DNA from: Desulfovibrio fairfieldensis
GTDB taxonomy: Bacteria; Desulfobacterota; Desulfovibrionia; Desulfovibrionales; Desulfovibrionaceae
DNA length: 64,000 nucleotides
NCBI RefSeq assembly: GCF_001553605.1
Contig: NZ_CP014229.1
Span: 2,880,501-2,944,500, forward strand
Reading direction: 5' to 3'
The translations under genes and the position numbers were made by a program. The notes beneath the pieces were generated by a model. It searched no databases. It was not told the DNA's origin and was given only the letters and a program-made list of their open reading frames with translations. The number at the start of each line of letters is the position of its first letter. Within the stretch, counting starts at the first letter, position 1. This document shows, one piece after another, positions 54,015 to 54,281 of the stretch.

Positions 54015-54066
54015 AGAGAGAGAGAGAGAGAGAGAGAGAGAGAGAGAGAGAGAGAGAGAGAGAGAG
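54015..54066 (+). repeat. (AG)26 dinucleotide tract
   Basis: 52 bases of perfect AG repeat. It lies 47 bp before the ATG of a short signal-peptide-like ORF (54114), the same strand orientation as the (GA)18 tract before the chemoreceptor at 15.1 kb. Exact length may be unstable between cells or assemblies. Confidence 0.98.
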
Positions 54067-54113
54067 TTACGGACCTGAACGGGACAATCGCGGTATTTTA
54101 CGTGCTAAAATAC

Positions 54114-54281
54114 ATGGATGCTGTACGGAATATCATATCCGCGGCGGCGCTCTGCTTTGCTTTTTTATTGCTCACCCCGGTTCCGCCCGCGCGCCGCGTC
54201 TCCGGAGGCCGTTTTCGCGCAGGCCCTGGGCTGAGTATCGCCCGCAAGCTGGCGGAAGCCATGCACGGCAAGGGCACCTGA
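54114..54281 (+). pseudogene. Short signal-peptide ORF with in-frame TGA, possibly degraded gene
   Basis: ATG 54114 opens 55 codons: a hydrophobic signal-like segment (NIISAAALCFAFLLLTPVPP) then GLSIARKLAEAMHGKGT and TGA at 54279. The same frame stays open after the TGA (FSFTALFDPGGTQD and on) through to the nth gene, 180 bp further. This could be a point-mutated gene (TGG to TGA), a selenocysteine site, or chance. No ribosome-binding site is visible. I do not recognise the protein. Confidence 0.35.

Follow-up and report, generated by a model that had tools for sequence, protein, structure and literature searches.

Introduction

Slipped-strand contingency loci with repeats in the 5' coding region are known from Campylobacter, Helicobacter, Neisseria and Haemophilus, and phase variation has mostly been described for surface antigens and glycan enzymes. 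In the sensor kinase BvgS, a periplasmic binding domain is followed by PAS, HisKA, HATPase and receiver domains. Passages of one report describe how its gene, bvgS of Bordetella pertussis, is switched by frameshifts in a homopolymeric run of C residues (PMC1891110). According to parts of a study on Streptococcus gallolyticus, leader-peptide repeats control transcription of pil1 through a terminator; the layout given there consists of a leader ORF with a ribosome-binding site and the repeat, the terminator and the gene, and leaders ending 4 bp before the hairpin or within it were associated with high expression (PMC3894217). Phase-variable chemoreceptors as such are not new, because an excerpt of a study on H. 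bizzozeronii tables a chemoreceptor with a C9 tract as potentially phase-variable (PMC3234257). A search of the open-licence literature for phase variation, chemoreceptors and tandem repeats together returned nothing, and none of the titles and abstracts among the matches listed dealt with repeat-driven switching in Desulfovibrio. Likewise, a word search of the main text of a 2025 review on phase variation gave no hits for leader peptide, attenuation, chemotaxis or histidine kinase (PMC11868660).

Here we describe a locus in a stretch of 64,000 nucleotides from Desulfovibrio fairfieldensis, hereafter referred to as the window. The segment 54015-54461 is very probably what remains of a hybrid sensor histidine kinase gene, the frame of which was once set by a 5' GA tract.

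Results

A preliminary description, made from the sequence of the window, had drawn attention to an (AG)26 tract that precedes ATG 54114 on the same strand, to the signal-like start of the ORF behind it, and to TGA 54279-54281, beyond which the frame stays open for 180 bp. These observations were borne out. The tract is perfect (54015-54066), and the frame is indeed open past the TGA codon for 180 bp, because it then runs in phase into nth (ATG 54462). The features of the locus are listed in Table 1.

Table 1. Features of the window that are discussed in the text (position 1 is the first letter of the window)
Feature	Positions	Strand	Remarks
(GA)18 tract in short leader ORF (ATG 15027)	15030-15065	+	33 nt before chemoreceptor ATG 15099
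Chemoreceptor (dCache_1, HAMP, MCPsignal) behind (GA)18	15099-17240	+	domain search
Response regulator with HD domain, divergent	52552-53655	-	left-hand syntenic neighbour; 367-aa counterpart at the equivalent place in G045
(AG)26 tract, perfect, 26 units, 52 bp	54015-54066	+	counterpart is (AG)16 in the first codons of the intact G045 gene
5' remnant of the kinase gene: post-tract segment, ATG 54114, signal-peptide codons	54093-54191	+	DNA alignment to G045, 107 columns
HATPase (G2 box) remnant and linker toward the receiver domain	54192-54420	+	tblastn to G045; broken by TGA 54279-54281
In-frame TGA	54279-54281	+	arginine at the matching position in two intact homologues
DNA directly 5' of nth	54414-54455	+	90% identity to the equivalent G045 site
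nth (endonuclease III), in phase with the broken frame	54462-55145	+	ATG 54462, stop 55143-55145

The closest relative by nth (92% identity), here called G045, has an intact ORF of 1235 aa in the slot between the divergent gene for the HD-domain response regulator and nth. The start of this ORF reads GAGGAGAAGCCCGG-ATG, with GAGGAG ahead of the ATG as the Shine-Dalgarno sequence, and four codons and one base later the ORF enters an (AG)16 tract that is in frame and followed by a signal-peptide-like segment. The start, the GA tract and the kinase thus all lie within one ORF. Pfam identifies SBP_bac_3, two PAS_4 stretches, HisKA, HATPase_c and Response_reg in the product, and an Hpt domain was not found by Pfam in this kinase. 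HisKA, HATPase_c and a receiver domain, which together define a hybrid sensor histidine kinase, occur in one protein both in G045 and in a second genome, G010; of these domains, a fragment of HATPase_c is all that the window has retained. Close by, the window encodes a separate Hpt protein (52191-52565), and more distant hybrid-kinase matches were seen at 49361-51070, 57601-59679 and 61662-62900.

nth was found in 59 of the 61 genomes searched within the genus, G000 being one of them. The frame reading through the TGA was compared with 39 nth loci, namely 29 from the 58 other nth-bearing genomes of the genus and 10 of the 80 mostly distant loci obtained in a wider contig scan. The tblastn comparison yielded a single match with E < 1e-3, which was G045: the HATPase remnant shows 46% identity to the kinase over 87 columns, with E-values of 1e-12 and 6e-13 (8e-6 in a larger search). 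By blastn, 28-44 nt adjoining nth matched in 10 of the 39 loci (G045 included), and a second match was obtained in G045 alone. The post-tract DNA of the window and that of G045 align with a local score of 47, which was reached by none of 1000 shuffles (mean 19.2, sd 3.1), and this alignment pairs the signal-like start with the signal-peptide codons of the intact kinase gene. Compared as protein, the signal peptide gives a modest match, the score of which is reached by 0.5% of shuffles. Similarity between the upstream intergenic regions is weak (score 53, against a mean of 34, an sd of 6 and a maximum of 54 in 300 shuffles). The later segments of the window successively match the G045 ATPase domain, its linker and the bases that immediately precede nth; the order of tract, signal peptide, ATPase piece and nth is thus collinear in the two genomes. 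The HATPase remnant was compared with part of its own genome's kinases, and its likely orthology to the G045 kinase rests on synteny.

Relative to G045, about 3.6 kb are missing from the window in total. These comprise about 3 kb between the signal peptide and the ATPase, about 30 nt within the ATPase domain, by which the remnant is internally shorter than the G045 domain, and about 0.6 kb that would hold the receiver domain and the spacer. The tract itself differs between the species, with 26 units in the window and 16 in G045. No start codon was found upstream of (AG)26 in any open frame of the window. Every other one of the 26 GA tracts in this genome (see below) is traversed by a frame started by ATG, GTG or TTG on at least one strand; within the 240 nt searched, (AG)26 alone is not. 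The damage, the synteny, the collinear homology at either end and the presence of a tract within an intact ORF are all directly observed.

Matches to the kinase at E 1e-100 or better were obtained in 2 of the 61 genomes (G045 and G010), and an intact kinase gene with a GA tract only in G045. No intact copy was detected at E 1e-100 in the window's own genome among the 11 of 71 candidates that were scored. The G010 kinase, which is 42% identical to that of G045 over residues 299-1234, is encoded directly before nth, the two ORFs overlapping by 4 bases; the order of kinase and nth is therefore not limited to G045. No GA tract is present within 250 nt before the start of the G010 gene, and the sole GA tract of at least 18 bp starting with A in this genome is located on another contig. 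Since this homologue is without a tract, the GA tract at the kinase may be young. In G041, whose nth marks it as a close relative, the 15 kb surrounding this gene contain no more than weak matches to the receiver and PAS domains of the kinase.

The preliminary description had considered that TGA 54279 might be read through, by selenocysteine or by suppression, which would give a longer secreted protein, and the frame is open on either side of the codon. It had proposed to look in relatives for an intact gene with TGG or TGC at this position. The intact gene was found in G045, but the residue at the TGA position is arginine in both homologues compared (G045 and G010), where neither cysteine nor selenocysteine occurs. 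Folding of the RNA 3' of the TGA is unremarkable (z +1.2), its stability being equalled or exceeded by 186 of 200 shuffled sequences, and no SECIS-like hairpin was identified, in agreement with the remark in the description that none was convincing. Moreover, the open frame downstream is accounted for by the ATPase remnant and nth being in phase, and the product of read-through would be without any complete kinase domain, most of the gene being missing. Selenocysteine insertion or any other read-through is thus so improbable that we reject it.

Positions 54114-54281 could also be regarded as a real gene for a small secreted or membrane protein, with only incidental resemblance to the kinase, as they have a start, a hydrophobic segment and a stop. 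However, both halves of this segment are collinear with the kinase gene at the equivalent locus of G045, and the other 38 of the 39 nth loci show no match at E < 1e-3 in tblastn. The synteny and the absence from the nth loci searched lead us to dismiss such a gene, the probability of which we regard as minimal.

A further possibility is that the tract now acts on nth, as a 5' untranslated or promoter-proximal repeat that makes expression of endonuclease III vary. The tract is separated by 395 nt from nth, the next intact gene on this strand, and one weak promoter-like site is located upstream of the tract (53798-53826). However, no leader ORF passes through the tract, and the numbers of promoter-like sites (1, against a shuffle mean of 0.9) and of terminator-like sites (1, against 1.0) equal those in shuffles. 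Scanning the nth neighbourhoods of G045, G041 and G002 for tracts of at least 7 units furthermore revealed a single one, the G045 kinase's own. A role of the tract as regulator of nth is therefore unsupported and, in our view, very unlikely.

The tract in the window belongs to a larger set. Two pattern searches for GA tracts of at least 16 bp in the genome of 3.70 Mb identified 19 and 7 tracts, respectively, and the actual lengths of these 26 tracts range from 28 to 80 bp. This number and these lengths in a genome of this size are not due to chance. A relation of GA tracts to gene starts, for which the preliminary description had proposed a genome-wide search, is evident, as GA tracts elsewhere in the genome are tied to gene starts and 13 of the 26 are upstream of chemoreceptor genes. 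The description had named two findings that would speak against its interpretation, namely that no relative has a longer protein in this frame and that tracts elsewhere bear no relation to gene starts; the contrary was found on both counts.

The 13 tracts lie within 2 kb upstream of an MCP signalling domain when either strand is allowed, and 12 of them are on the same strand as the domain. In a circular-shift test the mean was 0.56, and 2 of 5000 shifts reached 13. Seen from the receptors, 13 of the 38 MCP signalling domains of the genome have a GA tract within 2 kb upstream. Two GA tracts in 64 kb, both ahead of a start, had been pointed out in the preliminary description, and the other one is (GA)18 before a chemoreceptor ATG (Table 1). 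A third tract, about 0.4 kb outside the window (genome position 2880094), likewise precedes a chemoreceptor gene. The window also contains a short tandem repeat of another kind at 32589-32632, with a period of 8 or 16 (GTTCCGTA type) and 5.5 or 2.7 copies.

Three tracts are located at GGDEF-EAL genes, one before the gene, one inside its 3' part and one right after the ATG (genome positions 2258730, 3134417 and 3413974; L083, L092 and L094), and a similar gene is present in L319 of G045. These genes possibly encode switchable cyclic-di-GMP enzymes. Other tracts were found at genes for an MBOAT acyltransferase, a sulfatase, a GNAT protein and a sulfotransferase, and one is situated 574 nt from an HlyD-type gene. 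At genome position 2230919 (L082), a GA tract directly follows the stop codon of a gene that we named dnaA by eye from its sequence. GA tracts of at least 18 bp starting with A are present in 20 of the 61 genomes of the genus (G000 included). In relatives, tracts were seen in or before genes that by eye resemble those for sulfotransferases, a methyltransferase and others. Several GA tracts occur within 27 kb among surface-glycan-like genes of G041 (L272 and L273), where two similar sulfotransferase-like genes have tracts inside.

Some of the tract-led chemoreceptor genes form clusters, namely those at 2402504, 2404968, 2407944, 2415667, 2418413 and 2423605 (L085 and L086), and those at 391987 and 396988 (L077). 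Leaders with a Shine-Dalgarno sequence and an ATG that enter the tract in the sense of the receptor were detected at 10 of the 13 chemoreceptor loci (the exceptions being 2423605, 2665554 and 2880094). Over all 26 tracts, leaders starting with ATG or GTG number 14 on the GA strand and 5 on the CT strand, and one of these five, at 1633130, has the receptor's sense. A scan performed without a shuffle control placed a terminator-like hairpin between tract and gene at 9 of the 13 loci (all except 2418413, 2665554, 2880094 and 2895530). At eight of these nine, exactly one frame passes the hairpin and the other two stop at most 27 nt from the tract; at the remaining one, 396988, even the longest frame falls just short of the hairpin. 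The hairpins of the chemoreceptor loci are situated 45-90 nt past the tracts. At present the leader is in frame at 2415667, and would also be so at 2423605 should its ATG, which has no Shine-Dalgarno sequence, be used. A second, weaker hairpin, overlapped by all frames, is found immediately after the tract at 391987, 396988 and 2404968.

We then scored a frame pattern in which two frames end within 30 nt and one beyond 100 nt, these thresholds having been set after seeing the data. Nine of the 13 chemoreceptor loci show this pattern, for which the shuffle probability is 0.05-0.10 per locus, and four do not (396988, 2665554, 2880094 and 2895530). Because several loci are copies of each other (391987, 396988 and 2404968; 2402504 and 2407944), this amounts to about 7 of 10 independent families. 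The four tracts viewed in relatives, three in G045 and one in G002, all fall outside the thresholds. Frames end at 6, 19 and 95 nt and at 4, 15 and 44 nt for two G045 tracts before chemoreceptors (L318), and at 39, 59 and 145 nt for a third one (L320). At the G002 tract (L304), two frames end after 101 and 270 nt, and the other has no stop in the 400 nt viewed. A locus of G060 (L284) holds a candidate chemoreceptor that was assigned by motif.

At 2402504 and 2415667, the stop codon of one leader frame overlaps the candidate start codon of the receptor, an arrangement that would add translational coupling. By eye, the chemoreceptor gene at 2404968 (L085, about 11180-11300) appears to lack the usual start and to be frameshifted near the N-terminus, and it is perhaps a second decaying member of the GA-tract set. 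On the reverse strand of L077, at 7505 (genome position about 394496), a chemoreceptor gene without a tract has a stop a few codons past the usual start; a leader-like ATG and a hairpin without a T run remain in its upstream DNA.

Discussion

In the intact form of the kinase gene, as seen in G045, the ORF begins upstream of the tract and translates it as alternating Arg-Glu; the signal peptide comes next, and then a solute-binding domain of the periplasmic type, PAS domains, HisKA, HATPase and a receiver. Slippage by any number of units that is not a multiple of three would take translation out of the kinase frame, so that the kinase would be made in some cells and be absent from others, as in classical slipped-strand phase variation. 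We infer that the intact kinase is switched by the length of its tract, and that the switch worked before the gene decayed. In the genome of the window, the gene has been destroyed by a mid-gene deletion of about 3 kb, a short deletion in the ATPase domain and the loss of about 0.6 kb including the receiver, and further damaged by the TGA stop codon and by loss of the start upstream of the tract.

With no start codon remaining ahead of it, the tract cannot restore the product by gaining or losing units, and the gene is therefore dead rather than switched off. Neither selenocysteine nor a mere 'off' state fits an arginine at the TGA position together with a tract that no start precedes. The window has the long, perfect repeat of short units that is typical of phase-variable genes, in the form of (AG)26, but the repeat lies inside a translated region in G045 and not in the window. 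As the tract in the window is outside any translated frame, the locus is best called a remnant of a phase-variable gene and not a member of this class. That the tract is long and perfect (52 bp, within the range of 28-80) suggests that decay was recent or that slippage keeps the tract clean. The preliminary description had proposed a slippage-controlled surface gene that decayed. Decay is upheld by the intact G045 gene, which has a GA tract in its first codons and encodes a longer protein in this frame; the gene, however, specifies a hybrid sensor histidine kinase instead of a classical surface antigen, and control by slippage is the probable reading of its layout.

Taken singly, the locus is a well-explained, ordinary pseudogene. 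A repeat-bearing gene for a two-component sensor was once present here and has been lost, while the sister species kept its counterpart. What makes it informative is that it once belonged to an unusual set of GA tracts, half of which precede chemoreceptor genes. The GA tracts before chemoreceptor genes probably act as random on/off switches, as judged from the arrangement of leaders, frames and hairpins. Slippage in the leader ORFs of about ten chemoreceptor genes would set whether the ribosome reaches the terminator hairpin and, upon reaching it, disrupts it, and each cell would thereby hold its own combination of chemoreceptors. Other signalling may be controlled in the same way by GA tracts within the initial codons of GGDEF-EAL proteins and, in one case, of a hybrid kinase, and the 54015 locus would be one that was lost from the set. 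We lean, with some reserve, towards this reading as a whole, that is, genome-wide bet-hedging for sensing through GA-tract slippage. The cases contrary to the attenuation model are 2665554, 2880094, 2895530 and the G002 locus L304, which does not fit it. If the switching is true, a population would diversify what its cells sense. It is the chemoreceptor set, and not the single kinase locus, that we put forward as a novel case.

Like the known contingency loci, the tracts described here are long, perfect repeats of a short unit near the start of an ORF, where out-of-frame lengths would truncate the product. Some also share the kind of target, such as those at the MBOAT acyltransferase and sulfotransferase genes of this genome and at the genes of relatives that by eye are sulfotransferase- or methyltransferase-like. 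They differ in that the unit is the dinucleotide GA and that most targets in this genome are sensors (chemoreceptors, GGDEF-EAL proteins and the hybrid kinase); moreover, the kinase copy in the window is dead, and switching is here deduced from the sequence. With bvgS, the kinase gene shares a repeat in the coding region of a sensor kinase, and the domain order in G045 is similar. However, the G045 gene has a dinucleotide tract at the very N-terminus, whereas the C run is within bvgS, and in the G045 kinase one SBP_bac_3 and no Hpt were found, with a separate Hpt protein encoded nearby in the window.

The layout of pil1 is matched by most of the chemoreceptor loci, in which a Shine-Dalgarno sequence and an ATG, the repeat in a short leader ORF, a terminator-like hairpin and the gene follow each other, and by analogy the reading frame would decide whether the ribosome gets to the hairpin. 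The kinase locus is unlike pil1, as its tract lies within the gene's own ORF. The system in S. gallolyticus has GCAGA units and comprises pil1 and pil3, which concern pili, whereas the present one has GA units at about ten loci for chemoreceptors in a Gram-negative bacterium. If the switching is real, these loci would represent a further, apparently independent, multi-locus case of leader-peptide attenuation used as a phase switch.
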